From Hippopus hippopus (taxonomy: Eukaryota > Mollusca > Bivalvia > Cardiida > Cardiidae), in assembly GCA_946811185.2 (NCBI GenBank), contig OX328102.1:16803194-16867193 (forward strand): a DNA stretch of 64,000 bases. The letters run 5' to 3'. Both the position numbers and the translations under genes were made by a program. Within the stretch, counting starts at the first letter, position 1. Every line of letters begins with the position of its first letter. Below, one piece after another: positions 28,245 to 63,600 of the stretch. Below the pieces are notes generated by a model. The model was not told the origin of the DNA, did no database searches, and saw only the letters and a program-made list of their open reading frames with translations.

Positions 28245-28541
28245 CTAATGTATTTTTTTGGCGCTATCTGTACTAGTTTTAGGATAAACTTTATTACCGT
28301 ATACAGGTGTTATTTGGGGTATATCCTGCTTTTGTAAATAATTATTCACCTCTTCCTCAATCTCTTTCATTTTGATTACTTTTTCAGGAGACAACTTCAC
28401 AACGGTTTTTTTATAACCATATTGTGTGTCATTAATTTCGAGGATCTCACAATCTTCTAGATTAAAAAATACACTTAATATGTAAATAGAACTACTATTG
28501 CGTCCTACATGAAATACACGTTTAAATATTAAATTTGGCAT
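28245..28541 (-). CDS. 98-residue Polinton protein of unknown function
   Basis: Intact small ORF with an AT-rich motif (TTATAAAAAAAG) before its ATG. The N-terminal half looks like beta strands (RVFHVGRNSSSIYILSVFF), the middle has a short acidic helix (KMKEIEEEVNNYLQKQ). I do not recognise the family. It lies between the capsid gene and the small hydrophobic protein in the leftward gene train, which suggests a structural or assembly role, but nothing in the sequence proves that. Confidence 0.6.
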   Translation of the reverse strand: MPNLIFKRVFHVGRNSSSIYILSVFFNLEDCEILEINDTQYGYKKTVVKLSPEKVIKMKEIEEEVNNYLQKQDIPQITPVYGNKVYPKTSTDSAKKIH

Positions 28542-28593
28542 TTTCTTTTTTTATAATGAATATAATTATCTTAACTTTTTTTCATTTTTTTCT

Positions 28594-28991
28594 TCATACT
28601 ACTTTAATGCCAGACCCACTGTTTAATTTTTTAACTAAGTCTTGAATAGCAATGGCACTTCCATCTATTAATGTATCAATGTTTTGTGCTGTAGGTGTAT
28701 CAGTGGGTTTCGGTGTGGCGGTATATTTTTGTAAAATTTTTTGTGATTTTGGTGTTAAAGCTTTTGTAACTAATTTTTTTCCTGCGTCTACAGCTGCACT
28801 CTTTCCAACCTCTAAAGCTTTCTTCGCACCTTCCTTAGCTACACTCTTCCCCACATCAAGGGCAGAAGATGCAATTTGTTTAGCCGCGCTACTTGTAAAA
28901 AGCCTCGTTAAAAAGGTAGCAATACTATCAAAGATTCCAGCACCACAATATGAATACTTTTTTTAAATCCGTGGTTTTTAGTGATAATCAT
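28594..28991 (-). pseudogene. Small basic amphipathic protein, frameshifted
   Basis: The open part (28,594-28,854) has a repeated Ala/Gly/Lys helix with DVGKSVAKEGAKKALEVGKS-like periodicity. The likely start is the ATG at 28,991, four bases after the stop of the next gene. A 1-bp loss in an A7 run (near 28,960) puts the first part in another frame; after it comes a Gly-Ala-Gly motif followed by a hydrophobic helix (FDSIATFLTRLF). Small basic proteins with a glycine-rich start and amphipathic helix occur in Polintons and adintoviruses as candidate core or membrane-active proteins. The role is inferred. Confidence 0.6.
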
Positions 28992-28994
28992 TTT

Positions 28995-30000
28995 TTATAG
29001 TATAGACATTAAATTTTTATAACTGTTTGAATCTAAAACACCTTGTCTTTTTAATTCATCACATATGCTCACTAACTCGTTTCTTACACCTGTGTTGCCT
29101 GCTTTTTTACTTGCCAACAACAGGTCTAGTCTTTTTTATTAATGCGTTAGGGTCACATGGGATAACAACGATACCCTTTCCTTTAAATTTTTTTCTATTC
29201 GCCCAAATAGGTCCAAGTATATTAATCCACTTTTCCCCTCTAGAACCTTTAGGATATCTACTATCTGGGTCGTTATTACGATAAAGAGCGTTGGTTTTTA
29301 GCATTAAATGTTCGTAATTTGCAAGATCCTTATCTGTATAAATGTTTTCATCTGGTTCTTTAGCAACAATTAACTCCCATAGACCAGGTGTTCCTTTATA
29401 TATCTCAGTACCAACCAAAATATCATCATCATCAAGTATGGTTAATTTGCTACCAATATAAAATTTACCATTTTTATCATGTAATCCATATGTTCTATCA
29501 ACATTAGTTTTACCAACAAATTTCGTTAAATACTCCTTTGCAATTGGTCCAATAAAATGCTTATCTTCATCTTTCCACCATTCCTTTTCCCCTGCACTTG
29601 GTTCTTGTCCTTCAGAGGAATAAGCTTGTATTGTTGGAAATGCTGGTAAATTAATAGCTTGCGGTAAGTTTTCTAAACCTTCTTCAATAGGGCTGAGCCC
29701 CTCAGTAATCTCCTTTGTTGTAGCTTTTTGTGCTTCTGTAATCTCCTTTGTTGTAGCTTTTTGTGTTTCCGTAATAGGTTTAAAAAACTTTGAAAGACCA
29801 GTTTGCAATTCTTGCTCACCTGTTCTCTTTGCTAGTAGATTATCCCGAATATTCTTTTTTGTTTCAAGATACTCTTTTACAATTAAGTCCCTTTTTGCAG
29901 GATCAGTGATTTTTAAAAAAGACATTTTTTTATTACTAACATAATTTTTTTTTATATCATTTTCATCATAGTTTTTATCATAGTTTTTAACACGTTTCAT
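28995..30000 (-). pseudogene. Conserved Polinton-associated protein with coiled-coil repeat, frameshifted
   Basis: The main ORF is 29,107-30,000. I prefer the internal start at 29,925 (MSFLKITDPAKRDLI), since the element's ATAAAAAAATG motif precedes it. Residues about 78-103 hold two copies of a 12-residue unit TQKATTKEITEA, a likely coiled coil. The second half (GKFYIGSKLTI, TPGLWELIVAKEPD, KTNALYRNND) is a pattern I have seen in invertebrate Polinton proteins with no assigned function. A 1-bp gain in an A6 run (29,132-29,137) cuts off the last part; the frame beyond stays open to 28,995 and includes a second conserved helical region. Function unknown. Confidence 0.7.
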
Positions 30001-30041
30001 AACTACAGCTGCATGAAAACTTTATTTTTCTTGGTTTATTA

Positions 30042-30727
30042 CTACTCCGAGGGAGCGGTATGATTCTTTTCAACCAACCTCCGAAAGGACTCACGCGCTT
30101 CTTGCCTCCCTTTCTCAATTAAACTTTCTTCATTTTCGGTAGATATCTTTTTCTTAGTTTTTGTTCTTACTTCATCCTTCATTTTCTTATACTTCTCTAA
30201 TTCTTCCATGATAAGTTTAAACTCTTCATCCGATATATGATTGTCAACTAAAGCGTTGGATATATGTGTAGCGATTGTGTCAAGCTTAGCATCAGCTATC
30301 ATTCGAATCTTTTGATGTTTTTCTGTCTTAGTTGTTGAATTTCTTACAACATACTTACCTACTAATGAAAGAAGACCGGTAAATGCTGCAGAGGCTTCTA
30401 ATGCTATTACAGCTGGAATAGCTACAACAGTAGATAGTAACTCGATTCTTCCAACTCCGCTAGCCATGGTAATTGTAATGAGAACCGTATCAATATTGTC
30501 AACAATTTTTGCTGCTCTAGAATATTTTTTAGCTAAGGCATCTCTCTTTTGAATTTCATTTTCGAGAAACTTTTGTACTTCACATATCTTTTGTAAACGG
30601 TAGGAATGACCCTTGTCATCTCCCATTGCATACATCTCAATAGGTGGGGCGCTTGCAGTATTTCTTTCTCGAGGTAACGGAGGATAGATTTTTTTTTTGA
30701 AGGGTGTTCTTGATCTATTTCTGCCAT
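30042..30727 (-). pseudogene. Polinton membrane-associated protein, frameshifted near the start
   Basis: ORF 30,042-30,635 plus an upstream start at 30,727 in another frame; the break is in an A10 run (30,699-30,708). The protein has an N-terminal helix (RLQKICEVQKFLENEIQKRD), a hydrophobic pair at about 50-100 (VLITITMASG, VVAIPAVIALEASAAFTGLL) and a long charged helix (EELEKYKKMKDEVRTKTKKK). It belongs to a family common in invertebrate Polintons that often shows two membrane-spanning or membrane-inserted helices. The role is unassigned; entry or membrane disruption during virion uptake or assembly would fit the hydrophobic pair. Confidence 0.7.
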
Positions 30728-30754
30728 TTTTTATTAAAATGATATTTTTTCATA

Positions 30755-31135
30755 TCAAGATTGTAAATATTTTAGATAGCAGAATAACTCACCCTCAGGT
30801 ATTTCAACTGAATTTTGTGAGAAATTATAAATATAGACTAAGATATCATTAGTCTCATTATCAAGATGTGTCCCATTAAGAGTGGTTAAACTATCTTTCC
30901 ATTTATTACTAACAGATATCACTGCAACTCCTCGTGTAGTTATATAACCAAATCCTAGCGAAAGTCACATACCTTTACTAGAAGGAATCTTGATAGTTAC
31001 TTGTGAGTATATTTTCCATTTTAGAGGATCTTGCTTTAAGGGAGGATATCTTACTCCACGTAAATGAGGTTTCCAAAGTATAGTTGTATGTTGATTAGTA
31101 ATATTAGGTTTTATACCAAATTTATGTATATCCAT
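30755..31135 (-). pseudogene. 127-codon gene split by an in-frame TGA, possibly dUTPase-fold
   Basis: Reading from ATG at 31,135 to TGA at 30,755 there is one frame with a single internal TGA at 30,965-30,967 (codon 57). The two halves keep the same composition and hydrophobic pattern, so this is a real gene and not chance. After the break come LSLGFGYITTRGVAVIS, NDILVYIYNFSQNSVEIPEG and a short end. G-Y/R-G-V then alternating strands and IPxG resemble the core of dUTPase-like jelly rolls, but the catalytic motifs are not visible. The likely start follows GTAAAAAATG. It lies between the pVI-like and membrane-protein genes. Confidence 0.6.
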
Positions 31136-31180
31136 TTTTTACTTGTTATAGATAATATTCAAATATTATTATTTATAACA

Positions 31181-31765
31181 TTACAATATAGCTCCTAAGA
31201 TAGGGATATTAGCAAATGGACTATTAGGTCCAAGCAAAAGTCCTTTTCCATCATAATTTTTTCCTCCTTTCTTTAAATACAAACCATCACCAACAGACTC
31301 TAATCCTTTACCTTTGTATGGCTTTAAGTATAATCCACATCCATCAGTTTCCACTCGACAAACACATCCTCCTTTTTTAAGATAAAGACCTGATCCCATT
31401 GCTTTTTGTACTCCTCTTTGAGCTAATCCAGAAAGAGCACCAACACCTAAAGCTGGTAAAACGGTTTTTGCGATCGTTGGCAAAGCTCTAGCAGCCAACC
31501 CCGCCAACATTCCGAGAAAACCTCCCTCTATTTTCATATTATGTTTAAGTTGTTTTGCAGTCATTTTAATCGTTACACCTTTACCACCCTCATAGGCTTT
31601 AGCTATTTTTTTTGCTTGTGAATTGGTTAATGCTAAAACATCATTACCTTGCAAATCTTCATGACAAAAACGAATACTTACTGGACAACCAGCTTTATCA
31701 GCATATTGAAGCTTTTGCTTTTGTCCTTCCGATATATTTACTTTGACAGTAGTGTAACTCATCAT
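31181..31765 (-). CDS. pVI-like hydrophobic capsid protein with adenain-type cleavage motif
   Basis: An intact 194-residue ORF. The N-terminal 80 residues form a compact domain (YTTVKVNISEGQKQKLQYAD...). At about residue 80 the sequence KIEGGFLGML fits the adenovirus protease consensus (M/I/L)-x-G-G-x. A 35-residue Gly/Ala/Leu amphipathic to hydrophobic helix follows (GFLGMLAGLAARALPTIAK). The C-terminal third has repeated GxGLYLK units (SGLYLKKGG, CGLYLKPYKG, DGLYLKKGG). Adenovirus pVI is organised the same way: a propeptide, a protease site, then a membrane-lytic helix. The element's own adenain-like protease is at 34,822. The parallel in function is inferred. Confidence 0.75.
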   Translation of the reverse strand: MMSYTTVKVNISEGQKQKLQYADKAGCPVSIRFCHEDLQGNDVLALTNSQAKKIAKAYEGGKGVTIKMTAKQLKHNMKIEGGFLGMLAGLAARALPTIAKTVLPALGVGALSGLAQRGVQKAMGSGLYLKKGGCVCRVETDGCGLYLKPYKGKGLESVGDGLYLKKGGKNYDGKGLLLGPNSPFANIPILGAIL

Positions 31766-31788
31766 TTTATATATAATTCTTTTTTTAT

Positions 31789-32562
31789 TTATCTCGCTTC
31801 TCTAATATGAAATCTAATTGTTAAATTTTCACCTCTGAGGTTTAGTAAATTACCATCTTGGTCTGTAATATTTACCTCTAGGTTATGTATTTCATCTAGT
31901 GTTATTGGTAAGTATACTAAATTAACTGGTGACTCAATTATCTTATATTCAGGTGCAACATCTGGGAAAAAAGAGTAAATAGTGTTTTTTGTTGAACCAT
32001 TAACATAACTTCCTGAAATAATATCAATGTTAACAAGTATACTGTTTATACTAAGAATGTTTACTACATTCTCCGACTCATAAAATCCTTGTGTATATTT
32101 AGCGCTAGTAAATCCTAATACTTTGGCAATAGAGTTTGGTTGATTAAAATCTATTTGATAACCATCTTCTAAGGTAATAACAGACTTTAGGGTATTGGTG
32201 TTTGCAGAAATGTTAATATAATACTCTTCATTAACTTCATCGTAATGACCCCTTTTTCTCATTTCCTGGTGAATGGTATCATTAATGCCAACAAGGTCAT
32301 AACTTCCTTCAGGTATTCTTAATTTAATCCATGAAGTACCATTGTCTGGAGAATAAACGAATATGTTGTTTGAAGCATCAATGTTTGGAAAAGAGTAGTA
32401 AGTTTCAAGGTTTACTAAAGCTATCTCGTATTTTTTATCCTTTTCCAGCTGAATTGGTGGATTAAACCTAGTTCTAAAGCGTGTTTTGTTGTCACTTACT
32501 ATAATTTGAAATGATGTTTTGTGTTCCGTATTTTTTACAATTTGTTCTAGAAGGTCTTCCAT
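31789..32562 (-). CDS. Penton / minor capsid protein (single jelly-roll)
   Basis: An intact 257-residue beta-rich ORF. FQIIVSDNKTRFRTRFNPPI, KKYEIALVNLETYYSFPNID, GFTSAKYTQG and the C-terminal LPITLDEIHNLEVNITDQDG follow the pattern of the Polinton minor capsid protein, which sits at the fivefold vertices. It is immediately downstream of the ATPase (24 bp) and upstream of the pVI-like gene (23 bp), each with an AT-rich motif (TTATATAAAATG) abutting the start. This is a strong family match by pattern. Confidence 0.85.
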   Translation of the reverse strand: MEDLLEQIVKNTEHKTSFQIIVSDNKTRFRTRFNPPIQLEKDKKYEIALVNLETYYSFPNIDASNNIFVYSPDNGTSWIKLRIPEGSYDLVGINDTIHQEMRKRGHYDEVNEEYYINISANTNTLKSVITLEDGYQIDFNQPNSIAKVLGFTSAKYTQGFYESENVVNILSINSILVNIDIISGSYVNGSTKNTIYSFFPDVAPEYKIIESPVNLVYLPITLDEIHNLEVNITDQDGNLLNLRGENLTIRFHIREAR

Positions 32563-32586
32563 TTTATATAATAAATGTAATCTTTT

Positions 32587-33356
32587 TTAATTAGGTATGT
32601 AAAAGTTGTCAAAGCCGTTTCTATACTTCCCATCATGTTTTTTACTGGTTAGATCAATGATAGCAAAACCGTGTGGTTTTTCCCACGTCTTTTGACAAAA
32701 TTTTCTAAACTCATCCTTAGACATATCTTCACCTACATGATCGTTATAAATATTATTAATGTTTCTTGTGGGAAAAGACAAATAAAATTTGCGTTTTCTC
32801 TAATAGTTTGTCTCGGTAGTCTAAAATAATTCTGTGAGAGGTAAAAGCAGTCAACATTACTATGCCTTCCTCGAATGTAGTAACACTCACATTTGTTTTG
32901 CTTTTCCAAAAGTAAATCATCAAAAATCATTAATTTTTTATTTTCTGAGTTTAACTGTCTCGGATCAGGCACATCACTCGCATTTTCAAAAAAGTTACAA
33001 TTTATATTTGATTTGCTTTTAATCGTTTTAATCCATTCTTCAACCAAAGGTGTTGGTAAAATGTTTAGTTCTTGTATTTCATCACGCATGTTAAACAACC
33101 TTAAAATACATTCTTTTGGTAGTCTTTCTTCAAAAGCTTTTTTTAGTATTCGGTATTCCGGTTGAAAAAGGCTTTTTCCAAAAACACTCAAATCATTGTA
33201 GTCAAGCCAGCCTGGTCTAAGTAAAAGGTTTAACAATAAGGTAGTTTTACCACATCCTGATTTACCTACAATTATTCCTCTAATACTTTTTGGTAAAAGA
33301 GAGTGATTAAATCTCTTTGATACTACTTCGTTCCATGATAAATTTACAATATCCAT
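32587..33356 (-). pseudogene. FtsK/HerA-type genome packaging ATPase, frameshifted
   Basis: The 207-codon first ORF (32,733-33,356) has Walker A GKSGCGKTT (residues 31-39), Walker B LMIFDDLLLE (D146/D147) and the downstream RGRHSNVDCFYLSQNYFRLP segment typical of Polinton and virophage A32-like packaging ATPases. After FICLFPQ the frame shifts near 32,770, and the conserved C-terminus (IYNDHV, MSKDEFRKFC, WEKPHGFAIIDLTS) continues in the ORF ending at 32,587. The ATPase pumps the genome into capsids in relatives. It is the first gene of the leftward train and is divergent from the integrase. Confidence 0.9.
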
Positions 33357-33387
33357 TTTATATAAATTTTTTATTTTTTATTAAAAA
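33357..33387. promoter_or_regulatory. 31-bp divergent promoter gap
   Basis: Only 31 AT-only or nearly AT-only bases separate the ATPase start (leftward) from the integrase start (rightward). TATAAA occurs in it, and TTATATAAA is read directly before the ATPase ATG. Both transcription units must therefore start within this gap or inside the opposing genes. Confidence 0.55.
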
Positions 33388-34816
33388 ATGTATTGCGTTA
33401 AATGTAAAAAAAAAGTTACAACTAACATAGAATATGCTGTTGCTAAAAACGGAAGAAATATGAGACGAGGAAAATGTGTGGTTTGTGGAACAGCTAAAAC
33501 CCAGTTTGTTAAGACGTCAAAGGGTGGATCATTGCTAAATAAAGCTATAAATAATTTACCTTTTGAAATGCATCTTCCTGGGCACAATTTTACGGGGCCC
33601 GGCACTAAATTAAAAGAAAAGACTCAACCCAGATTTAACACCAAAGGATTGGAGTAAACCAATAAACCGTGTTGATAAAGCTGCTTATCATCATGATGTT
33701 TGTTATTTAAAAAATCCTACTACTAAAGTTAGAAACGAAGTGTATGATAAAAATATGTTAAAAGAGTTAAAAGGTATTTACAACCCAACGGTTAGGGAAA
33801 AAATGGATAAGTCCATCGTTAGTAAACTCATTGGAACAAAGATGAAATTTGGAATGGGGGTTAAAACCACGACTGGTTTCAGGAGTAAAAAAAAAAATTT
33901 AAACATGATAAATTTATCGGAAGAATTACATAAACCCGTAAAAAGAAAATTTAAGAAAAGGAGAGTTAGAGTAAACGGTATAGATAGAATATGGGCTGCC
34001 GATTTAGTAGACATGCAAGCATTTTCTAAGTTTAATAGTGGTGTAAAATATCTTCTCGCTGTTATTGACATCTTTTCAAAATACGGATGGTTGGTACCAA
34101 TAAAAGACAAAACGGAAAAATCTGTTGCTATAGCATTAAAGAGTATTTCTAAGGAAAGAAAACCAGATAAAATATGGGTGGATAAGGGTAAAGAGTTTTA
34201 TAACAAAAATGTTAAAGACTTGATTTAATTATATTCCACTAAAAATGAGGAAAAATCTAGCGTGGTTGAGAGATGGATTAGAACAATGAAAGAAAAAATG
34301 TGGAAGTATTTTTCTACTAACTCCACAAACGTTTACATTGACGTGTTACAGGATCTTGTTAAAGAATATACGAACACGAAACATTCTTCCATTAAAATGA
34401 CTCCAGTAAATGCGAGTAAAAAAGAAAATGAAACTAAAGTTTGGAGAAATCTTTACCCTGATCATCTCGAAATAAAAGATATAAAACCTAAGTTTTCTGT
34501 TGGAGACAAAGTAAGGTTAACTAAAAAGAAAAAGACTTTTGAGAAAAGTTATACAACAAGATGGACTGAAGAGGTTTTTACAGTTTCTGAAGTAAAGCAT
34601 ACATCGCCTGTAACATATAAAATTGAGGATCTTAATGGAGAAGAAATAAAGGGTACCTTTTATGAACCCGAACTGCAAAAAACTAGTCAAGAGTTGAATA
34701 GGATAGAAAAGGTTATTAAAAAAGGAAAAAAGAAATCTCTTGTAAAGTGGAAAGGTTATCCCGATGAATTTAATTCATGGGTAGATAATAAAGTCATTAT
34801 AAATATTTCGCTATAA
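33388..34816 (+). pseudogene. Zn-ribbon / PLA2-like / integrase / chromodomain protein, broken
   Basis: First ORF 33,388-33,657: a zinc ribbon (CVKC...CVVC) then HLPGHNFTGPG, a phospholipase A2-like calcium loop. In the next frame YHHDVCY supplies the His-Asp pair, the arrangement of parvovirus VP1 PLA2. That frame runs on through 33,740-34,228 into a retroviral-type integrase core (WAADLVDMQ, then WVDKGKEFY) and, after an in-frame TAA at 34,226-34,228, the third acidic residue in SSVVERW. The C-terminus is a chromodomain (LVKWKGYPDEFNSWVD). Lesions: a 1-bp shift near 33,620 and the TAA. PLA2 and integrase may have been two genes; a poly-A run near 33,888 leaves that open. The integrase inserts the element; the chromodomain may guide target choice. 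Confidence 0.87.
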
Positions 34817-34821
34817 AAAAA

Positions 34822-35238
34822 ATGTTAGATATTTCAATTGAAAACGTAATTTTACCAAATAAACCGTTAAACAATTTCGAATTGGAAGATGCGGCAAAAA
34901 GATTAAAGATTCCTTCTTTTAGAGGGTTTTTTTTACTTGATACATTGCCGAGAAAACCAAATAAAAAAGAATGTGGTATAGTAAACCTTGATAAAAGTGG
35001 TGGCCCTGGTACACATTGGGTTGCTTGGTATAAAAACGGTAAAACTAAAATTTTTTTTGATAGTTATGGTATACAACCACCTATTGAAATTCAAGAGTAC
35101 CTAAAAAGCCCAATACATTACAATAGTGATCAATTACAACAAGCTGGTCAAGTATTTTGCGGTCATTTATGTTTATACATTCTTTAAGAGTTGGGTTTAG
35201 GTAATAAATTTCAAACAGTAAAAAATAAATTATTTTAG
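34822..35238 (+). pseudogene. Adenain-like cysteine protease with in-frame TAA near its end
   Basis: It processes capsid proteins in the family. ORF 34,822-35,187 (121 residues) has the C5/Ulp1-type active site: H65 in GTHWVAW, D80 in FFDSYG, Q106/Q107 and C113 in QVFCGHLC. After LYIL an in-frame TAA (35,185-35,187) occurs, and the frame stays open for 16 more codons to TAG at 35,236, where relatives have a final helix. The core could be functional without that tail. It starts 5 bp after the integrase stop, with ATAAAAAAAATG at the start. A candidate substrate is the pVI-like protein. Confidence 0.88.
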
Positions 35239-35247
35239 TACTAAAAA

Positions 35248-36444
35248 ATGCCTGTTGATAAATTCGGACGAATGGATGATGTTAAAACAAGCGGTGATGG
35301 TGTGTAAGTCGCTTATATAAATAATAATTTTTTACGTAAAGATGGAACAACCACCGTTACAGGTTCAATAAATATGAATGGTAATACATTAACGAGGGAT
35401 AGTAATCCGGTAAATTCACATGACGTTGCTACAAAACATTATGTTGATGAGAATTCTGGGGGATTATTAAAAGAAAATGGTGGGTATCATGTTCTTGGAT
35501 TTCTAAATATGGGTTTCAATAGAATAAGAAATGTTAAAGAGCCTACAGAACCGGGTGAAGCTGCTACTAAGGATTATGTGGATAGAAGTGGAAGAGCATT
35601 AGTACAACAACAAGATGGCACTTTTTCCGCTGTTGATGATATAAATTTGCGGGGGTATACTTTAAAAAATCTTATAGATCCCGCGGATGCTCAAGATGCT
35701 GCGACTAAAAAATATGTAGATAATGCTAATAGAGCCTTTGTTTATGGAGGTGGGGGGTATATAGCCGTTGCTGACGTTTCTATGGGTGGACGGAGAATTT
35801 CAAACCTTGGACAACCTTTAGAACATCATCAAGCTGTAAATAAGTATTACGTAGACAGCAATATAGAAGCTGTTTAAACTTATTCGGGGATTGGTGCTAT
35901 ATTAAAAACTCCACAAGGAACTTTTTCTGTCGTTAGCGATATTGACATGAATGGCAACTTTTTAAAAAATATTGCAGACCCGAGGGATTCACAAGACGTG
36001 GCAACTAAGGCTTACGTAGACGCTAATAAAGTAATAGCGCCGAGACTTATTGGTCCTAAACCTATTATAACCGTGTGGGCTGAAGAAAATGGTGAAATAG
36101 GAGACGGCAATTATGAGTTTTCATTTGGTAACGGCAACTCAGGCAATGAGCATGGTTTGGGTGGTTACTGTATGAGTGCATCAGGTAGAATTATAAGAGG
36201 TAGTTTAACGGTTGTTAAAGATGATCCTAATATACCAGAAGAGGTAAAAGTTAATATTATGGTAAACGGAATAGAGCAGGTTGATTACTCTATTATTAAA
36301 AAAGTGGACGAAACTTGTAGCTGTACGGTTTTTCCAAAGACACTAGAGGTAAAACAATGCGACATTATAAACTTTATTTCAAGATCAGACAACCCTACTG
36401 TGCGTCACGCTTACATATCTATTTTAATAGAGTTAGACTTGTAA
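35248..36444 (+). pseudogene. Fibre-like repeat protein (putative attachment protein), two in-frame TAAs
   Basis: One frame runs from ATG at 35,248 to TAA at 36,444, interrupted by TAA at 35,305 and 35,875. The middle has five repeats of about 46 residues, each ending in a variant of AATKKYVD (ATKHYVD, ATKDYVD, ATKKYVD, VNKYYVD, ATKAYVD), the same unit seen in phage tail fibres. The last about 140 residues form a distinct head domain (PIITVWAEENGEIG, MSASGRIIRGSLTV, then a VNIMVNG strand). A repeat shaft with a C-terminal head is the layout of a receptor-binding fibre. It starts 9 bp after the protease frame ends. Confidence 0.75.
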
Positions 36445-37510
36445 AGTGTTAAATATTGGAAAAAGGATCAGTTTACACCACGTGACATAGTATTTCGCAC
36501 TGCTTACTAGTATAATATCAGTTTAGTCTGGACTTTTGAGGATGATGGTAGTATATTATGATATTAATAATTTTTTTGCTTTGTTTTTTTAAAAAATTAA
36601 AAATGTATATGATAATTGTATAAAATATGATCTTATTTTATGATAAAGCGGTCTTACTTCCCTGTTGTATTTTAACTTTTGTAAGAATAAGAATGTTATT
36701 ACTAACACCAAATGGTAACCTCTGGCGCGGCCTAACAGCCCATAAGTTAATACCGAAAAAAATAAGAACCGCTGGCGAGGCCTAACAGCCCGTAAGTTCA
36801 TAGCAATTACTAACATAAAATGGTAACCTCTACTGTGGGCTAACAGCCTGTAAGTTAATACCATATCAGTACATATTTCTTACACATTAAAAACACAAAG
36901 TTGTAAGGCTGCTGTTTAAAAAAAACAGAATAAGTATTTTATACAATTATTCTACACGTTAAACATTTTTTTAAAAAACAGGGTTAAAATTTTTTTTTAT
37001 ATTATAATGTACTACCATTTTCAGTTTTGGTGGTGTTAATTGAAAGCTATAGAGTCGTTTACTAAATAATACTTCCTCTTTCGTTTTCGATGAGGAAGTA
37101 TAAAAATGGTTTAATCATGGTAGCGTCATGACTCACCTTACTTCATCTATACTTTTTCTTATGTTAAGGTATAGAAAACGTAGTTAAAGGCGATTTTTAA
37201 GCTAGTTTAACGTTTTTCAACATTATTTTAAGATAAATATATAATGTACGTTGATACATTATGTATTCAGTTAACCATTATATAAAAAATGAGTAAATGA
37301 TTAGTAATAAATCCCAAACCTTGCCAAATAATGATGATGTAAATGCAAATCTCTAGGGGGTTTTTTGTTGGTTATTAAAGATTCGTTTACTATCATATAA
37401 CAAATACATTGATTTCGAGTAAACCCTTTTAAATCTTTTTTTTTTTTCAACATCAAATTGGAACGTCAAACGAAACTTAATCTCTTTTAAGGACATTTTA
37501 TCAACTGAGT
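36445..37510. other. AT-rich non-coding part of the Polinton
   Basis: No credible gene. A threefold repeat of about 60 bp with GGCCTAACAGCCCATAAGTT lies at 36,712-36,863. The rest is AT-rich with several poly-T runs. Confidence 0.6.
36712..36863. repeat. Threefold tandem repeat inside the Polinton
   Basis: Three units of TGGTAACCTCT...GGCYTAACAGCC..TAAGTTAATA. The two first units differ from the third mainly in GGCGCGG/ACTGTGG. It lies after the fibre gene on the rightward side. Confidence 0.8.
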
Positions 37511-37783
37511 TTATAATTTCCCACAAAAAATTTTCATACCTTTTTTTTTATTTATTATAGGACAACATGCTTCTATAATTGGAGAAGCATATTTTGATAA
37601 CATTACTGCAAACTCTGAGTGTTTTTGTTTTCTTTCATCGTCTGGAAGATGGTTTGTTAATGATTTAAATATTTGTTTAGCATCTTCTGTTCTAGCCAAG
37701 TTTTCTTACATTTTATTTAAAGCTGCAAGTAGTCTACTATCATTAATGTTAATTATAACTAAAAAAATTTTTATCTCATCCAT
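37511..37783 (-). pseudogene. Small helical Polinton protein with in-frame TAA
   Basis: One frame of 91 codons from ATG at 37,783 to the stop at 37,511, with TAA at codon 26 (37,706-37,708). Both sides look coding (DSRLLAALNKM; then TEDAKQIFKSLTNHLPDDER). Mostly helical, charged; no family recognised. It is the outermost gene at the right end and reads inward. Confidence 0.5.
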
Positions 37784-37817
37784 TATTAATACACAATTAT
37801 GTGGAACCTTTTTGAAA

Positions 37818-38089
37818 ATTTTCAAAAATTTTTTCTCGAGAATCGGGTAATCGTTGCATCGACTTAAAAAAAAATTTTTTTTTTGGTTAGCCGGACGAAG
37901 CGGGCGATGCGTTGTTTAGCCGGACGAATTGGTTAACCTAAAAATGGTTGAATCGATTAGTCAAATGAATCGGCGCGACACGTTTAACCAGATGAATGGT
38001 TGAAAAGGAAAATTGGCGCGACGCGATGAATCGAACGGATTAGCTCGATCGACACGTCTTGGCCCAGATCGGGAATATTATATACTACT
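37818..38089 (-). repeat. Polinton right terminal inverted repeat
   Basis: 272 bp, the mirror of the left repeat, ending ...ATATACTACT directly before ACAGAA. Confidence 0.95.
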
Positions 38090-55800: not shown

Positions 55801-56662
55801 GTGGAGTAGAGTAGTGTCTCTCACTTCAGTAGTTATCAGGTCGATTACCGTGAGGAGCAAGGTCTACCTTTTTAGCTACCTACTTTTATAGGGCAAGTAC
55901 ACTAACCATTCACCAACTATTCCTTTGAACTTTCTTTGACTTATCTCAAGAGTTTCCTAGATTAGAAAGTAACACAACTTCAGATTACCTAAACCAAATG
56001 GTTTAGCCAATCAGAAGTTGTAATACTTTCAAAATCTAGAATATGACTAAGAATGAAACTAAGGATGGTTGCTGAATACAGGTTTCTGAATACAGTCATG
56101 GAGCCCGCCGAACAATATTGTAGATCGATGTAAAATAAACGGTAACGGTCAAGGATAATGCAGCTGTATGCTCATGACCATGTCTAAAATCTCGTGATAA
56201 GCGGGGTCCACCTTTGGAATTACTCACATCACAGCGCGAATACTTGTTAAGAATTCCATGAAGAAGTCGTCCAGGGCGATTGATTAAAGCTGTGAGAAGT
56301 ATTTTTTTCATAATTGATCACGATCAATGCGTTTAAGGTAACACCAAGTTTGGTGAACGTCACCATTTTGTCAAAAGCTTTCGGTTTATTCCCACCTGAG
56401 TCCTGTTATCAGAAAGACTCGCCAGAGCATAAACAATAACAACCTCGAAATTTCAGGACTTTAATTTAGACTGTAACGCACATGTAGTAAAAAGAACTCT
56501 CAATCAATTGAAAAAAGGATAAAACGAATCAGGTTGAAGAAAAGCTGTGGAGCAGCAGTTCAGATTTGTTCATTCTAACTAAGAGAACGGCTGCCAAAAT
56601 TATTGTATCTGAACTGGTAGTTTTGTAAAACGAATCGAGACTGGCAAATATGTGAGTAGTAA

Positions 56663-56718
56663 AGGAGGGGAGCATGGGATCTACCCAGGCCGGGGGTAGA
56701 TCCCATGCTCCCCTCCCT
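56663..56718. repeat. 24-bp-arm hairpin, GC-rich
   Basis: AGGAGGGGAGCATGGGATCT..CCC pairs with GGGTAGATCCCATGCTCCCC..T around a 7-base loop, one bulge. It begins a block (to about 56,970) in which CCCAGGCTC..CCCTGAG units recur. Confidence 0.85.
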
Positions 56719-57013
56719 GAGCGCCCTATATCACCGTCCCTGACAAAAAATGTGTCCCTATATGCTGTCCCCGAAAGATTTTTTAAAAAAAATATCCCAT
56801 ACTCTCTACCCTGAGAGGGATTTAGCATTCAAAATGGCGGCCGTGTGGATGGCACTCTGGGGACAAAAATGCCCCAGGCTCCCGTCCCTGAGCGGAATTT
56901 TTTGCAAAAAAGCGAAAAGGGGGGGAGTTTTTCCCAGGCTCTCTACCCTGAGAGGGAATTAGCATTCAAAGTGCAGATCTTATGACTGGTAGGTTGGGTA
57001 AAAAATGGTCAGA

Positions 57014-57480
57014 TCACTGAGTTGGACTTAGTTTTTTCACCCTATGGATGATTTTTTTCTTTCTAATTGCCTGACCATTGAGTTGGACTTAGACTTTTTC
57101 TTATCTATGATTGATTTCTTCTCTCTAAATGTCTGAGCACTGAGTTGCACTTAGACTTTTTTTACCCTATGTATGATTTCTAAATGTCTAACCATTGAGT
57201 TGGACTTAGTCTTTTTTCAACTATGAATTCTCTTTTTAATTGCCTAAGCATTGAGTTGGACTTAGACTTTTTTCCCCTATGAATGATTTTTCTCTTTCTA
57301 AAAGGAATTTGTCCCTATATCACTGAGTTGGACTTAGACTTTTTTCTGCATCTCTATGAATGATTTCTAAATGTTTGAGCACTGGGTTGGACTTAGTCTT
57401 TCTGATTTTTCTGCATCTATGAATGATTTTCTCTCTTTTAAAAAGGTTGACCATTGAGTTGGACTTAGTCTTTTTTCTAC
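57014..57480. repeat. Minisatellite of about 60-bp units
   Basis: GAGTTGGACTTAG recurs about eight times (57,020 to about 57,455) with CTATGAATGATTT between. It marks the left flank of the second virus-like element; its boundary to host DNA is not visible. Confidence 0.85.
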
Positions 57481-57534
57481 ACCTATGTATGATTCTTACT
57501 CTTTGCAGTATAACTCTCTGGAGTGTATCTCTTC

Positions 57535-57945
57535 TAAAAGAAAGATAGAACTTTCGTGGTAGATGGTTAGTCCTGAAAAGGACTGTTGGGTTAGCTCTGA
57601 AAAGAGCTGTGACAATTTGAAGAAATGACAATTTGAAGATAGAACTTTCGTCTGACAGCTTGAAGATAGAACTTTCGTCTGGCAGCTTGAAGATAGAACT
57701 TTCGTCTGACATCTTGAAGATAGATCTTTCGTGGTAGATGGTTAGTCCTGAAAAGGACTGTTGGGGTTAGCTCTGAAAAGAGCTGTGACAATTTGAAGAA
57801 ATGACAATTTGAAGATAGAACTTTCGTCTAACAGCTTGAAGGTAGAACTTTCGTCTGACAATTTGAAGAAATGACAATTTGAAGAAAAGATAGAACTTAC
57901 GTCTGACAATTTGAAGAAAGGTAGATCTTCCGTGGTAGATGGTTA
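57535..57945 (-). repeat. Array of 3'-end units with histone-type stem-loops
   Basis: Units of about 21-27 bp (GAAGATAGAACTTTCGTCTG) alternate with stem-loop units. On the minus strand the stem-loops read AGCTCTTTTCAGAGCT (57,593-57,608 and 57,769-57,784) and AGTCCTTTTCAGGACT (57,569-57,584 and 57,744-57,759). ORFs read across it (DESSIFKLS repeats) are products of the repeat, not genes. Probably an amplified copy of the 3' flank of the small genes. Confidence 0.75.
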
Positions 57946-57960
57946 GCCCTGAAAAGGGCT
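57945..57960 (-). promoter_or_regulatory. Histone mRNA-type 3' stem-loop of small gene 1
   Basis: Minus strand: ACAGCCCTTTTCAGGGCTAA. Six-base stem AGCCCT/AGGGCT with loop TTTC, followed by ACCATCTACCACGGAAGA, a purine-rich stretch placed where histone genes carry the U7-binding downstream element. It lies 46 bases after the stop codon of the gene at 58,006-58,239. Confidence 0.75.
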
Positions 57961-58005
57961 GTTTGGGGTGTCCCTAAAAGGGAGCTGGTTTTGGAGGTTG
58001 TGTTT

Positions 58006-58239
58006 TTAAGCACAACCTCCAACCTTTCTGCAGGCTGGACAGCTACTTGCTGCCCGCCTCTTTAGCCTCTTCAACTCCCGTTCATCCAGGTTGAAGTTTA
58101 GCGAGAACGCTGGCTTGTTGTCATCATCCCAGCACTCGGTCTGGGGTACGACGAACTCCTTCTTCTTGTCGTCCATCTTTTTTCTGGATGATAGCTGGGC
58201 AAGGTCCCAAAAATCCATGTCTCTTAAACCACACTCCAT
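58006..58239 (-). CDS. Small gene 1 of the second element (77 residues, CPxC...GC tail)
   Basis: Intact ORF. The N-terminus is acidic and mixed (CGLRDMDFWDLAQL), the middle basic (DERELKRLKRRAASS), and the C-terminus ends CPACRKVGGCA. The tail resembles CPICQANFGCCH of the next small gene, so the two are likely paralogues or share a zinc-binding tail. A TATAAAA lies 51 bases upstream (58,290). The stop codon sits in a perfect 12-bp hairpin (57,991-58,022) and a histone-type stem-loop follows. I do not recognise the family; the basic stretch could bind nucleic acid. Confidence 0.6.
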   Translation of the reverse strand: MECGLRDMDFWDLAQLSSRKKMDDKKKEFVVPQTECWDDDNKPAFSLNFNLDERELKRLKRRAASSCPACRKVGGCA

Positions 58240-58289
58240 GTTGTCTACAAGTCGAAGAGAATGAACGATGTGCGGGAAATGACACTGGG

Positions 58290-58296
58290 TTTTATA
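58290..58296 (-). promoter_or_regulatory. TATA box of small gene 1
   Basis: Minus strand CCTATAAAACCCAGTG. Upstream (58,398, 58,447, 58,496) are three CCAAT motifs within a 115-bp block that is repeated upstream of small gene 2. Confidence 0.65.
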
Positions 58297-58367
58297 GGTT
58301 TTCAGACGGATTGAACTAGTTGACCCATGACGTCATTTTCTCCTATGTTTTTCCCGCGTCGGCGTTT

Positions 58368-58480
58368 CATGCTGTTTTGGCTCCAAATTAATGTTATCCA
58401 ATCAGAATCAGCGTTTTATTTCTAATACTAAATGTTTTATTGTTGTCCAATCCGTGGGTTTGTTACATTTTCTTGTTCGG
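58368..58480 (-). repeat. Duplicated promoter block, copy 1
   Basis: CATGCTGTTTTGGCTCCAAA ... CCAATCCGTGGGTTTGTTAC matches 59,161-59,277 with about ten differences. Each copy lies the same distance upstream of a small ORF, so gene and promoter were duplicated together. Confidence 0.88.
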
Positions 58481-58674
58481 GGATTTTATTGTTGACCAAT
58501 CCGTGGGGTTGTTACATTTTCTTGATCGGGTTAGAAAAAACTAGAGTTTGGCTAATCTATGACTTTTTTTTTTGATTGTGAATCTTTGCAGTGTAACTCT
58601 TCTAAAAGAAAGAAGTTTGACAATTTGAAGAAATGACAATTTAAAGAAAGATAGAACTTTCGTGGTAGATGGGT

Positions 58675-58690
58675 AGCCCTGAAAAGGGCT
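58675..58690 (-). promoter_or_regulatory. Histone mRNA-type 3' stem-loop of small gene 2
   Basis: Minus strand: ACAGCCCTTTTCAGGGCTAC, then CCATCTACCACGAAAGTTC. Stem AGCCCT/AGGGCT, loop TTTC, 33 bases after the stop codon of the gene at 58,723. The flanking text AAACACAGCCTCCAAAAC matches that after small gene 1. Confidence 0.78.
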
Positions 58691-58722
58691 GTTTTGTTTT
58701 GGAGGCTGTGTTTTTTCCAGTT

Positions 58723-59016
58723 CTAATGGCAACACCCGAAATTCGCTTGGCAAATGGGGCATGCTGTAATCTTCCTCCCGAACTCGATATCAACCAAAAT
58801 GATATCCGGTGTTGTCTTTAATAATAGCTGAACTAATCTTTCGCCGAGATCTTTGTATGGCTGTGTTATACGTTGCAGTTGGTTTTGTTCCTCCTCTCCT
58901 ACGAGACGAGTGGTTAGTTGCAATAACTGCTGCCCTGCATTTAGATACTCTCGGAGAGCCTCACGTAGTTGATGATTTACCTCCTCCATATTGATAATGT
59001 TTCCTAATATTGACAC
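58723..59016 (-). CDS. Small gene 2 of the second element (97 residues, helical, CPxC...GC tail)
   Basis: Intact ORF; the start may be M1 or M10. The first about 75 residues are predicted helical with heptad-like leucines (NHQLREALREYLNAGQQLLQ, GERLVQLLLK), suggesting a coiled coil. The tail is CPICQANFGCCH, like small gene 1. TATAAAG lies 65 bases upstream (59,081). A histone-type stem-loop follows the stop. Family not recognised. Confidence 0.62.
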   Translation of the reverse strand: MSILGNIINMEEVNHQLREALREYLNAGQQLLQLTTRLVGEEEQNQLQRITQPYKDLGERLVQLLLKTTPDIILVDIEFGRKITACPICQANFGCCH

Positions 59017-59080
59017 TGCTTTCGAAGTGATCGTTAGCTGAGAATCAAAGAAATGGTGAATGTATGAAAATAACGCTGGA

Positions 59081-59087
59081 CTTTATA
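59081..59087 (-). promoter_or_regulatory. TATA box of small gene 2
   Basis: Minus strand ACGTATAAAGTCCAGCG, placed like the TATA of small gene 1. CCAAT motifs lie at 59,193 and 59,294 further upstream. Confidence 0.65.
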
Positions 59088-59160
59088 CGTTTAAGGAGGA
59101 TTGAAATTTTTAAAGAGTTCGGACCTGGCAGAAAGCACATACATTTTTTCCATGCTACGT

Positions 59161-59277
59161 TTCATGCTGTTTTGGTTCCAAATTAATGTTATCCAATCAG
59201 ATTCACCGTTGTTTTTTCTAATACTAATTGTTTTATTGTTGACCAACCCGTGGGTTTGTTACATTTTCTTGTTCGGG
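59161..59277 (-). repeat. Duplicated promoter block, copy 2
   Basis: Counterpart of 58,368-58,480. TTATCCAATCAGATTCACCG differs from copy 1 by a few bases. Confidence 0.88.
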
Positions 59278-59479
59278 GGGGATTTATTGTTACCCAATCC
59301 ATAGGTTTGTTACATTTTCTTTTTTCGGGTAAGAAAAACTAGAGTTTAACTAACAGTCATGAGACGTTGTATGGAAAAATGTAACCAGAACAAGTCTTTT
59401 GGGGAAAACAGAATGAAGAACTCTATTGTTTTTGAACTTTTATTTATTGAACTTTTATTTACTGAACAGAACTAAACAT

Positions 59480-59945
59480 TGAAACATTTTTTTGCAATGC
59501 ATCATAAAAAATTTCTTGACAATGAAAAAAATTTCTTGACAATGAAAAAAATCACAAGCAAACATTTTTTTGCAATGCATCATAAAAAAATTTCTTGACA
59601 ATGAAAAAATTTCTTAACAACTAAAAAAAATCACAAGCAATCATTTTTTGCAATGCATCATAAAAAATTTCTTGACAATGAAAAAACATTTTCTTAACAA
59701 TGAAAAAATCGCACTGAAATATTTTTTCACAATGAATTATTCACAACGATTTGATAACAATGAAAAAATCGCACTGAAATATTTTTTTCACAATGAATTA
59801 TTCACAACGATTTGATCACGATGAAAAAAACACACTGAATTATTTTTTCGCAATGAATTATTTTACAATGAATTGATAACGATGAAAAAACACACTGAAT
59901 TATTTTTTGCAATGAATTATTTTACAATGAATTAATCGCAAAAAA
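59480..59945. repeat. AT-rich tandem repeats between small genes and polymerase block
   Basis: First AAATTTCTTGACAATGAAAA units with TTTTTTGCAATGCATCATAA, then a related unit AATCGCACTGAAATATTTTT / CAATGAATTATTCACAACGA. CAATGAA is the common core. No gene; it could be an origin-like or 3'-untranslated region. Confidence 0.8.
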
Positions 59946-59962
59946 CAGTATATAACAAATTT

Positions 59963-60682
59963 TTATAATGCAAATTCGCAAATACCACGAGTTTCACGTT
60001 TGTTTTCATATTCCGTAATGTCTTTATGTAATTGGTCATACCCAAAAAACATTGTATACTCACTGTCCATATCGTCGAAATCTCGTAGTCCTATGAATGG
60101 AGCAACATGTCTATAAGCGTCTTTTGTTGAAAGAGTTGAATTCACTACTTCTTCTGTAACATCTCTATCAAATAGAATATACCCTGACATGGTTTCCTTT
60201 GATTCTCCGTAGGAATCATGAACAGATCCTTTTTTGTAGCGTAAGTAAAAGTCAAATAGAACTGATTTCATTTTCACAACGTTAAGAAAACTTTCTTCTG
60301 GTGTTCCTATGATAAAAAATGTCCATCGGCTTGTGGATCTAAACAGCTTACTAATAACATTGTCTTTCATACAGCTATCTGCTAAATAAGTCTTGAGAAC
60401 GAGATCCAGCCCCGAATCGTCCACCATCGTTGCAATAAAGTTGAATATAGCATACACTTTGTAGGACTTTTCTCCTTTTGCAATCCACTTAAACAATTTT
60501 CCGATCCAAATTTTCACACAGAAAAATTTAATGTTAAGCTGTGTTCGTTCATCAAGCGTATGCTGTCGAACAAATTCTCCATAAATTTTTTCACGTAGTT
60601 CTATTGGTAGCGGCAACATGATTGTTATTTTTTGACCAGCGGCTAATATTTTTCCCCGACTTACTTTGAGTGATTGGTACAC
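59963..60682 (-). CDS. 239-residue protein of the second element, unknown function
   Basis: An intact ORF starting 17 bases after the polymerase stop codon on the same strand, so probably in the same transcription unit. Features: PLPIELREKIYGEFVRQH near the start, a hydrophobic/aromatic middle (FFCVKIWIGKLFKWI, YAIFNFIATMV), RWTFFIIGTPEES, and an acidic end (DFDDMDSEYTMFFGYD). No zinc motif, no Walker motif. I recognise no family. Given its position it may be a replication partner of the polymerase. Confidence 0.6.
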   Translation of the reverse strand: MYQSLKVSRGKILAAGQKITIMLPLPIELREKIYGEFVRQHTLDERTQLNIKFFCVKIWIGKLFKWIAKGEKSYKVYAIFNFIATMVDDSGLDLVLKTYLADSCMKDNVISKLFRSTSRWTFFIIGTPEESFLNVVKMKSVLFDFYLRYKKGSVHDSYGESKETMSGYILFDRDVTEEVVNSTLSTKDAYRHVAPFIGLRDFDDMDSEYTMFFGYDQLHKDITEYENKRETRGICEFAL

Positions 60683-60699: not shown

Positions 60700-63600
60700 T
60701 TATTTTCTCAAGCTTTTATAACCATAGGGTACAGTATCAGTACCATTTACAATGACTCTCTTGGTGTATACAGAACGAAACGTTTTTGTTTGTGGTTCAC
60801 TGGTAACCGTTCTATCTCTGTGTCTTTTAATTCTACAATCATACTGAATTTTGATTTCTACTGTACGATCCAAAGCACATTTCGAATATGTATCGAAATT
60901 TACCACCTGTTTTGTATTGTAATCCAGAGTAACCCCCTTTACTTTACATTTGCTTATCTCTTTTCCATCTTTTGTTTTCATTTTGTAAGCATAATTCTTA
61001 GGTCCAAGTCCTCTGAATTGAGTAATTTTACAAGCAGGCTCTTCATCACTCCATTTTCCTAACCGGCTGTTAATAATAGGGGGATTCCATAATTCAGGGT
61101 CGTGAATGTACATACAACTATCTGTATCGAAATACAGAACTCTATCTTTTAACTTTTCAAGAACACTGTACAATTCCAACCTTGCATAAGCTGTTACGTA
61201 AGAACCTACTATCACATTGGCTGTAGCATGGGTGTCAATATGTTCCAACTTTGATTCATAGTTAACCAAGATGAATGAACAGTCCTCGTCAAAGATTTCT
61301 ACATGCTTTACAATGAAATTGGGATTGGTGACTAATTCGAAATATTTAGACGGATCACTGATGTATTCCGTCTGGGTCATTTTTTCACGCTGAGCTAATT
61401 TTCCCCAAAGGCAGTTCAACATAATCTTAGCAAATGATCTTCTCCCAGGATTTCTTTGAATACAACTTGGATCAAGACGAACACCTTCTGCCTTCTCATA
61501 TTCACAAACGAACTGATCTTTTTCTGAGTCTGATTGACAGCTATCTGGATAACCACTGGCTTCTTGCTTAATTTTCAAGAAATTGTCCACATAATGTTTA
61601 AAGAACTGATCTGACACAGAGTTGAAATGCCAAATTTCATACACTTGCAATAATCGATAACCGCAGTCAAGAGCCTTGAATAATTCAAAAGTAACCCAAG
61701 TTCCGACCAAAGCCCTCTCTTCTTTACCATGTCTACAAATGTTTGAACTTTCTTCTGCACATTTCATACAGAGGGGAAACATCATTTTGTTGTTACAGTG
61801 AACTGGGAGAACGGGGTGAAACAAATCAGTTGGAGGTAAAACTTTACACTTGATTAATCCCTCATATTGGCGAATATTGTTCATATCAATATTCTCAGTA
61901 GACAAAATTTCTGGATGACCTACAGGGTAGGATTTGTGTTTACAAACATAAGGGTATAGAGAACAGATATCGATGTACTTGATTTCCTTTTTGGTTTTTT
62001 CATCAACATCATATCCAATTTTTATTGCATTACATCTTCCTCCGGACAAACCATCCCTCGGATCGATAGGGTCCCAATGTGGATATAACTTTTCAATGAG
62101 TTTTTTGTACTCTTTATCCTTCATCTTAGCATCAAATTCGTGTTCCCAAATGTACACTACATTATATCCCATGTCTTCGATATCTGCTATACGTTCAAAA
62201 GTACATTTGAACAATTCAGACATGGGTTTTCCATTAATAGGATTGATCTGTTTTCGATCTGTATAGCATACAGGACAACCATGATAAAAATCTCCAAGAA
62301 ATTCATAAACAGTGTTTGTTTGATGGTGAAAACCATCTACACTATATTTCCCGATTTGAGCTTCACCACCATTTTTTGCATGCTGAATATTAATACCTTT
62401 TTCCTGGGCAACGCTTTGAACCCATCGTATCGCTTTCATAGAAAAGCGACGTCTGGATGAGTCTTTACTTGAAATGATAGCTATTTGATTTTCTGGTAAA
62501 TATTTGCTTCGCCACACCTTGTTACAGGCATCTGCGATGGTAATCGCCTCTAAAAATGGACAAATACCACCCTGTTCGATAAACAGCTTTCTGAATTCAG
62601 CACATCCTCGTCTGAGGATATCAACATCTGACCTACAGTACATTTCCATCTCCTTCTGAAAATTGAATTCCTCACCATTTCGAACTTTGTCATTATACCA
62701 AACTATAAATTTTGACCTAGCCTCTTCAGACATTGAATCGGGTTTGTAATAAGACATATCCAAGTAGGGTCCGATGTAACTCCAAAATTCATCTGTATTT
62801 GCCCAGTGAGGAAAGTAACCTTTTTTCATTTCTTGAAGGTCAAAGGTGGATGGAAATTTTGCCAAACCAAAACTCATGAAATTGAAAGAATCGATCAGAC
62901 GTACACCGTTCAGTTCTAACTTCATAATATTGTTTCCATTCATGATCACTTTTGGAAGTTTTAACCCAACTTTGACAATATAGTCAAGAATGAACTGACC
63001 GTCATAACCTTTGAAATTATGGGCAATAGCCGTAACCCCTTTATGATGTTTTGAAAAGAGCCAGTTGCAAAATTGACTCAAAGTTTCTTCACCTTGAAAA
63101 ATAACTTCCCTACCCTCTTCAAATTCACTGCATGTAGAACAATGAAAATCAAGTGATTTATCGATACATTCATCACACGCTCTGTGTGCAATACAATAAT
63201 TCGGGATGTGCACACCTGTGTCTTGTTTGCATTCAAAATCAAAGAAAATAAACTGTGTTTTTTTGACTACAGAAGAACTCGTCTCGTCATCGCTGTCATG
63301 GTTCAACTTACTTTGGTAAGGCTGAATATAGCATTGATGAGAAAAGTTAACAATTCTCTTACAGATATGACACCTTTTCTTTCCATTGCAAACATGATTT
63401 TTCTTTCTGACATGATATTGTGCACCGCATTTCGAGCAGAGTTTCACTAATTCACAAATGGATTTCTTTTCTTTACCTTGAACATTTCTGTGATTTTCAA
63501 AGCATTCAGCACTAAAAAAACGTCTACTGCAAACACTGCAAACATATTCTTTTGATTCTGATGGACATTTTCCTTTGCGGTAACAACCTTTACAGATATT

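Follow-up and report, generated by a model that had tools for sequence, protein, structure and literature searches.

The described systems that come closest to the element reported here are the 3′ end of metazoan replication-dependent histone mRNAs (SLBP/U7; RF00032), the Polinton/Maverick elements, and the adintoviruses together with other animal viruses that carry a type B DNA polymerase. The element belongs to the assembled genome (1.07 Gb) of the bivalve Hippopus hippopus and was analysed from a stretch of 64 kb (contig OX328102.1, positions 16,803,194 to 16,867,193; hereafter the window, to which positions refer). It occupies C7:16859848-16873891 (14,044 bp) and extends past the window end. 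With the histone 3′ end it shares a six-pair stem, a UUUC loop as in host H1, a tail ending in CA 5 nucleotides (nt) past the stem, a purine core, the spacing from the stop codon and an ATTGTCA motif of the host type; it differs in its non-histone open reading frames (ORFs), in an A-U bottom pair and in stem-loops that often stand in tandem. With Polintons it has in common a 6-bp target duplication, long terminal inverted repeats (TIRs), a type B polymerase and the same AGTAGT ends as a Polinton that lies in the window. Unlike them it gave no Pfam match to integrase, ATPase or capsid among the larger ORFs scanned of this copy, and it carries small histone-like genes in its TIRs. Adintoviruses and their relatives likewise combine a type B polymerase with small extra genes, whereas the element ORFs scanned have no hexon or integrase match in Pfam, and its polymerase no OTU match there. 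Viral histones, such as bracovirus H4 (PMC9145170, from the available part of that report), are also foreign DNA exploiting histone biology but encode histone proteins; the element has histone-like control parts only. The available part of a survey of animal viruses with a type B polymerase speaks of 'Oncoid' genes (PMC11071296) and holds no report of the arrangement described below, nor do the top matches of the literature searched, which covered few subscription journals.

Judged from the sequence, we conclude with a probability of about 0.75 that the element holds a group of genes mimicking histone genes, in which histone-like promoter parts and a histone-type 3′ end would bring about S-phase expression and SLBP/U7 processing. 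Four different small genes, encoding 77, 88, 104 and 68 amino acids (aa), have this end. Each consists of a short, uninterrupted frame with a TATA promoter, followed by a stem-loop, a tail of 5 nt that ends in CA, a putative U7-type element rich in purines, and ATTGTCA.

A first-pass annotation of the window had listed six minus-strand hairpins with stems of 6 bp and TTTC loops. All six are present and perfect in both respects. They are given below with their downstream parts and with scores from a covariance model built solely from five host histone genes, which is independent of Rfam and was run unfiltered over the window; its E-values are rough because the calibration was short.

58675..58690, minus strand: stem-loop of the 88-aa gene, AGCCCT-TTTC-AGGGCT, tail ACCCA; Rfam Histone3 28.5 bits, host-histone model 49.4 bits (E 1.2e-7)
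58657..58662, minus strand: purine core CGAAAG of the 88-aa gene, starting at the 13th base past the stem (host cores, 12th-13th)
58634..58640, minus strand: ATTGTCA of the 88-aa gene, at +35
57970..57985, minus strand: decayed seventh stem-loop, GCTCCCTTTTAGGGAC, read in the sequence and a hairpin on folding, just upstream of the following one
57945..57960, minus strand: stem-loop of the 77-aa gene, AGCCCT-TTTC-AGGGCT, tail AACCA; host-histone model 43.3 bits (E 2.1e-6); behind it, on the same strand, the purine core CGGAAG and then ATTGTCA at 57904-57910
57744..57784, minus strand: tandem stem-loop pair, 57769-57784 (AGCTCT/AGAGCT) and 57744-57759 (AGTCCT/AGGACT), with one purine core; host-histone model 29.5 bits (E 0.0013) for the 57744 stem-loop
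57569..57608, minus strand: second tandem stem-loop pair, 57593-57608 and 57569-57584, with one purine core, within a 176-bp duplication; host-histone model 22.0 bits (E 0.043) for the 57569 stem-loop

The distances of 46 and 33 bases past the stop codon proposed for two small genes agree with our counts of 45 nt (77-aa gene) and 32 nt (88-aa gene) between stop and stem. The purine-rich element, proposed for every hairpin, was found behind four, which are followed by A(A/C)CCATCTACCACG(A/G)AAG; the copies at 57769 and 57593 abut the next hairpin. Its core is not always CGAAAG, as the 57945 copy reads CGGAAG. On folding, four minus-strand stretches were better than their shuffles (z -1.95 to -3.15), and the single plus-strand stretch folded was no better (z -0.91). 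The pattern N-G-YYY-T/loop/A-RRR-C-N with full pairing occurs only at these six sites on both strands of the window. A 6-bp hairpin is simple enough to arise by chance, and nothing else speaks for such an origin. Order-1 simulations (n = 60) gave a mean of 0.1 such hairpins per 64 kb compared with the six observed, and a genome-wide search yielded 7,771 matches to stem-loop plus tail at up to three mismatches and none to the reversed pattern. Chance hairpins were therefore rejected, with next to no probability left to them. Between the stem-loop pairs, 27-bp tandem units repeat the purine core (GACGAAAGTTCTATCTTC...; 57626-57732 and 57804-57869, minus strand).

For comparison, we located the histone genes of the host. 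A conserved H4 stretch had 58 matches in the genome, all at C15:40.59-41.47 Mb, and in three stretches the order was H4, H2B, H2A, a stem-loop behind H1, and H3 (the H1 ORF was read in L059). Rfam Histone3 (RF00032), searched over the whole window at E<=10, returned only four matches, all at the sites described here (28.5, 22.9, 22.9 and 22.1 bits). The same model gave 35.2 (H4), 33.5 (H2A), 32.4 (H2B), 31.5 (H3) and 30.0 bits (H1) for the true host genes. With the host-histone model, the four element sites with a downstream element took ranks 1-4 in the window, and the next-best match reached 16.6 bits (E 0.55). We extended this comparison to 12 further loci, in which element gene ends scored 42.3-52.5 bits; the four unrelated viral contigs among these loci (L001-L003, with a bare stem match, and L004) had no match listed up to E 10.

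The likeness extends to the details of the host 3′ ends. Host stems begin 28 (H4), 31 (H2B), 31 (H2A), 39 (H1) and 31 nt (H3) past the stop, compared with 45 and 32 nt in the window genes. AAC precedes the stem in four of five host genes (AAA in H1) and mostly in the element too. The purine core starts at the 12th-13th base past the stem in the host, where it reads CGAAAA, CGAGAG or AGAAAG, and at the 13th-14th in the element, and GAAAGTTCT is common to H2B and the element with an offset of one base. ATTGTCA stands at +30 to +33 in four of five host genes and at +33 to +35 in all four element gene ends. The element stem-loop AGTCCT-TTTC-AGGACT is one base pair apart from that of host H1, GGTCCT-TTTC-AGGACC. 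Among nine distinct host and element stems, pairing is kept in 54 of 54 cells, and three pairs change on both sides. None of 500 shuffles reached the covariation score or the share of paired cells, and 23 of 500 reached the count of three doubly changed pairs, a control that is weakened because the sequences are related. The second pair holds the base that SLBP reads; this pair is G-C in all 11 rows of the host and element alignment and in 94 of 94 anchored element copies, which overstate conservation because they were anchored on the tail and drawn from loci with the stem pattern, and which we do not count as proof. The host has an SLBP gene (PF15247, E 1.4e-13), whose RNA-binding domain was matched in two stretches (C11:6982951-6984266).

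In the host histone unit at L059:603-8140, ATTGTCA lies 30-33 nt past the stem in H4, H2A, H1 and H3 and is replaced by AGTGTCA in H2B; the motif is conserved in the host and lies farther out than the usual downstream element. We also considered a U7-like RNA encoded in the repeats, as AAATTGTCA recalls the Sm site of U7. RF00066 had no match in the window at E<=10, and this reading was set aside because ATTGTCA is also present in the host histone genes.

Likeness to histone 3′ ends could also be expected of remnants of a real histone cluster that was carried or broken by the insertion. However, these stem-loops follow non-histone ORFs, three of which were sampled in 12-20 matches each, and no histone ORF was found in the window by tblastn with the four human core histones (best E 0.089). 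Since no histone gene was found in the window and all H4 matches lie on C15, we rejected a local cluster remnant as extremely improbable.

The two small genes of the window and a group of polyadenylation signals near them are located as follows.

58723..58989, minus strand: small gene 1, ORF of 88 aa, ending in CPICQANFGCCH, same protein in both TIRs
58006..58239, minus strand: small gene 2, ORF of 77 aa, ending in CPACRKVGGCA
59439..59464, minus strand: AATAAA cluster (starts 59459, 59448 and 59444) downstream of the polymerase and 218-aa genes

Gene copies across the genome were collected by tblastn, and the pattern AG(C/T)(C/T)CTTTTCAG(A/G)(A/G)CT was sought behind them. Readable matches were 20 of 20 for the 77-aa gene, 19 of 21 for the 88-aa gene and 12 of 13 for the 104-aa gene, the copies being related and not independent. 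A stem-loop starts 40-46 nt past the stop in all 20 matches of the 77-aa gene and 25-33 nt past it in all 12 of the 104-aa gene. For the 88-aa gene it lies within 60 nt of the stop in 16 of 19 matches, one of these stems having a U-G third pair; the three exceptions comprise one with a U-G top pair and two with changes that break two pairs. The genes for the polymerase and for the 218-, 292- and 220-aa proteins are without their own stem-loop and carry AATAAA.

Constraint on the protein was evident from the ratio of nonsynonymous to synonymous polymorphism (pN/pS), which was 0.09 for the 88-aa gene (10 distinct intact sequences) and 0.25 for the 77-aa gene (four distinct intact sequences of equal length). 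None of the 77-, 88-, 68- and 104-aa proteins has a histone match in Pfam. Forced into an alignment, the 77- and 88-aa proteins reach 28% identity and have mainly a C-terminal CPxC...GC in common; their AlphaFold models are poor (pLDDT 46.4 and 62.8, respectively). The 68-aa protein (L015:322-528, minus strand) is zinc-ribbon-like, with a FYDLN_acid score of 20.7 bits that is under the cut-off of 23.9.

The small genes also resemble host histone genes upstream. Promoter motifs and their tests were chosen after the motifs had been seen, and E2F and CRE serve here as motif names for putative sites.

59037..59140, minus strand: core promoter of the 88-aa gene, with the box GTGCTTTCTGCCAGGTCCGAACTCTT (22/26 to the host H1 promoter), TCAATCC at 59104, TATAAA at 59087 and CATTC at 59062
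58240..58357, minus strand: core promoter of the 77-aa gene, with E2F-like sites at 58350-58357 and 58272-58279, CRE at 58328-58335, TCAATCC at 58314, TATAAAA at 58296 and CATTC at 58263
58500, 58451 and 58402, minus strand: ATTGG boxes upstream of the 77-aa gene promoter

ATTGG boxes are found upstream of the small genes. TCAATCC stands 17-18 nt before TATA in the small genes, 18 nt before it in host H2B and 19 nt in H2A; H4, H1 and H3 do not have this arrangement. CATTC follows the start of TATA by 33 nt in the 77-aa gene and 25 nt in the 88-aa gene. A box of 26-27 nt, GTGCTTTC..CCAGGTCCG..CTCTT, precedes the 88- and 220-aa genes and corresponds to a box that host H1 has, with variant forms in H2B and H4. 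In promoter-box alignments, the 220-aa gene reached 39 points (0 of 200 shuffles as good) and the 88-aa gene 32 points (1 of 200), compared with 196, 44 and 75 of 200 shuffles as good for the control promoters of the polymerase, 218-aa and 292-aa genes. The promoter of the 77-aa gene holds its two E2F-like sites and CRE within 90 bp. Among 200 simulated 64-kb sequences, none had two E2F sites within 150 bp plus CRE, and one had the pair alone. The stretch GCGGGAAA-CRE precedes the 104-aa gene in two of three copies (the third has GTGGGAAA) as well as the 68-aa gene. The 68-aa and 220-aa genes share a divergent promoter. Taken together, the host-histone model, ATTGTCA, the promoter box and the TCAATCC-TATA spacing support, at the level of sequence, the claim of the first-pass annotation, namely that non-histone genes of a virus-like element probably carry 3′ ends of the histone type.

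Within the element, the 77- and 88-aa genes lie in both TIRs and the 68-aa gene lies inside, and the 104-aa gene occurs in the TIRs of other copies. Most hairpins stand in TIRs with tandem arrays, and the pairs at 57.5-57.8 kb have no gene, as might be expected if the hairpins acted as DNA (cruciforms, or replication or integration signals of the TIRs) and their histone likeness were fortuitous or vestigial. By contrast, one hairpin is found in the element interior behind the 68-aa gene (L013/L015), the strand and place of the hairpins track those of the genes, and at gene ends the match to the host-histone model runs approximately 45 nt beyond the hairpin. We consider a function as DNA improbable.

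Several findings weigh against the small genes being complete histone mimics. No stem-loop reaches the gathering score of Rfam Histone3 (34), either in the window or in 20 further loci. The first-pass annotation had itself suggested this covariance check and would have taken a score below threshold as evidence against its proposal, yet four of the five real host histone genes fall short of the same cut-off. Its assignment of the stems to the GGYYCU type does not hold for the bottom pair, which is A-U in six of six element rows and G-C in five of five host genes; in the anchored element copies it is A-T in 93 of 94 and G-T in one. Behind both gene-less tandem pairs, ATTGTCA is absent at the usual distance. 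Among the promoters, those of the 77-, 104- and 68-aa genes were not clearly above shuffles in the comparison with host histone promoters (54, 89 and 9 of 200 as good), the best histone box belongs to the 220-aa gene, which is without a stem-loop, and the 300 nt upstream of the five host histone genes showed neither the E2F 8-mer nor the CRE hexamer. At the protein level, pN/pS of the 104-aa gene was 0.91 (10 distinct intact sequences), that is, no constraint. Finally, AATAAA occurs 107-232 nt past the stop in 18 of 19 matches of the 88-aa gene and 247-253 nt past it in 8 of 12 matches of the 104-aa gene, so that polyadenylation of these transcripts is possible. With AATAAA behind two genes and a bottom pair of A-U, the pathway may be only partial or modified.

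Such a pathway could have arisen if histone parts captured from the host now worked only in part, giving SLBP-type binding or control of translation but no cleavage by U7, and transcripts polyadenylated at a downstream AATAAA. An AATAAA located past the stem-loop in the 88- and 104-aa genes and a bottom pair unlike that of the host would fit this, and we also counted in its favour the histone genes of Caenorhabditis elegans, which combine a hairpin with AATAAA, although their mRNAs end past the hairpin, according to the available part of the report (PMC1924863). It accounts less well for the 77-aa gene, in which no AATAAA was found within the 360-1000 nt examined past the stop in 19 of 20 matches, and for the 68-aa gene, with none within 321 nt past the stop. 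Furthermore, the gene ends retain the purine core and ATTGTCA, both of which are located downstream of the point where cleavage is expected. We regard partly working histone parts as unlikely.

For the preferred reading of the small genes as histone-gene mimics, we propose the following mechanism. The control parts, both promoter pieces and 3′ end, would have been taken over from host histone genes, and the host would drive the small genes during S phase. SLBP would bind the stem-loop, the U7 small nuclear ribonucleoprotein would pair with the purine core, and CPSF73 would cleave approximately 5 nt past the stem, which the sequence at this point (ACCCA, AACCA) fits. The resulting unpolyadenylated mRNAs would be translated during DNA replication and destroyed afterwards. 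Whatever role the small-gene products may have, they would thereby be linked to the period in which the element can be copied by its own DNA polymerase. The likeness of the 3′ ends, and in part of the promoters, to those of host histone genes suggests that the element probably uses the histone machinery to express its small genes in step with DNA replication. The most extended form of this proposal, in which a virus-derived mobile family built histone mimics around four small ORFs, with mRNAs that are cut by SLBP/U7, free of poly(A) and present in S phase only, seems to us reasonably probable.

If this is true, the small-gene transcripts would be, as far as our searches reach, the first animal mRNAs outside the histones, and the first of any mobile element, known to use a histone end, and a mobile element would have found a new way to follow the cell cycle of its host. 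The A-U bottom pair would then represent natural variation in the SLBP site. With this pair, the tandem stem-loops and the conserved ATTGTCA, the element would offer natural test cases for the requirements of SLBP and U7.

The remaining features of the element within the window are its left TIR with repeats, and the larger genes.

56655..60014, no strand: left TIR, 3.36 kb, beginning with AGTAGT after the target-site duplicate TATGTG; element ends 99.6% identical (blastn)
56664..56716, no strand: palindrome of 23 bp, perfect, spacer of 7 nt, also present in the other TIR (L014)
57003..57490, no strand: subterminal tandem repeats of the TIR, period approximately 56-62 bp
59963..60619, minus strand: ORF of the 218-aa protein, no Pfam match, without a stem-loop
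60700..64000, minus strand: type B DNA polymerase, 1369 aa, extending beyond the window to C7:16868002

TATGTG is duplicated on both sides of the element, whose ends read AGTAGT. The 23-bp palindrome is only 9 bp inside the element terminus and might form a terminal hairpin. AT-rich tandem arrays with units of 61 and 78 bp (59480-59934) are located inside the TIR between the polymerase unit and the small genes. The polymerase matched PF03175 with E 4.9e-38 for the ATG-initiated ORF of 747 aa (60700-62943) and E 1.9e-44 for the whole polymerase ORF. Other genes of the element encode a 292-aa zinc-knuckle protein and the 220- and 218-aa proteins. Stretches of four other interiors showed the same genes and no other large ORFs (lists of ORFs of at least 100 aa, compared by eye). 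This copy has nine distinct matches to stem-loop plus tail, five in L013 and four in L014 (the one in L015 repeats an L013 match); together with the number of matches in the genome, this corresponds to several hundred copies as a rough estimate. The earlier description of the element as Polinton-like or adintovirus-like is borne out in part, by its Polinton-type ends and type B polymerase; the capsid or integrase gene that such a description would lead one to expect was not found in the ORFs scanned.

We scanned viral contigs with the polymerase, the 88-aa protein, the stem-loop pattern and two polymerase-motif patterns, and found no relative. Three viral loci matching the stem pattern (L001-L003) were no more than a rough chance estimate predicts, and L004, which matched a polymerase motif, has no polymerase ORF; all four were rejected as relatives. 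Phage records gave distant matches only; three of these, with approximately 25% identity, were to polymerases or to records lacking annotation. A sequence search for a solved structure of the polymerase returned none.

The Polinton in the same window lies at 21122-38089 and has TIRs of 98% identity and the 6-bp target duplicate ACAGAA. It encodes a double-jelly-roll capsid (E 3.7e-52) and an A32-type ATPase (E 3.5e-9), and its polymerase-like frames, read by eye, are in pieces. Its integrase core (E 6.1e-7) scored 30.1 bits, just under the cut-off of 32.6. As this Polinton has the same terminal hexamer and a target duplicate of the same length, its kind of integrase could serve the element in trans.

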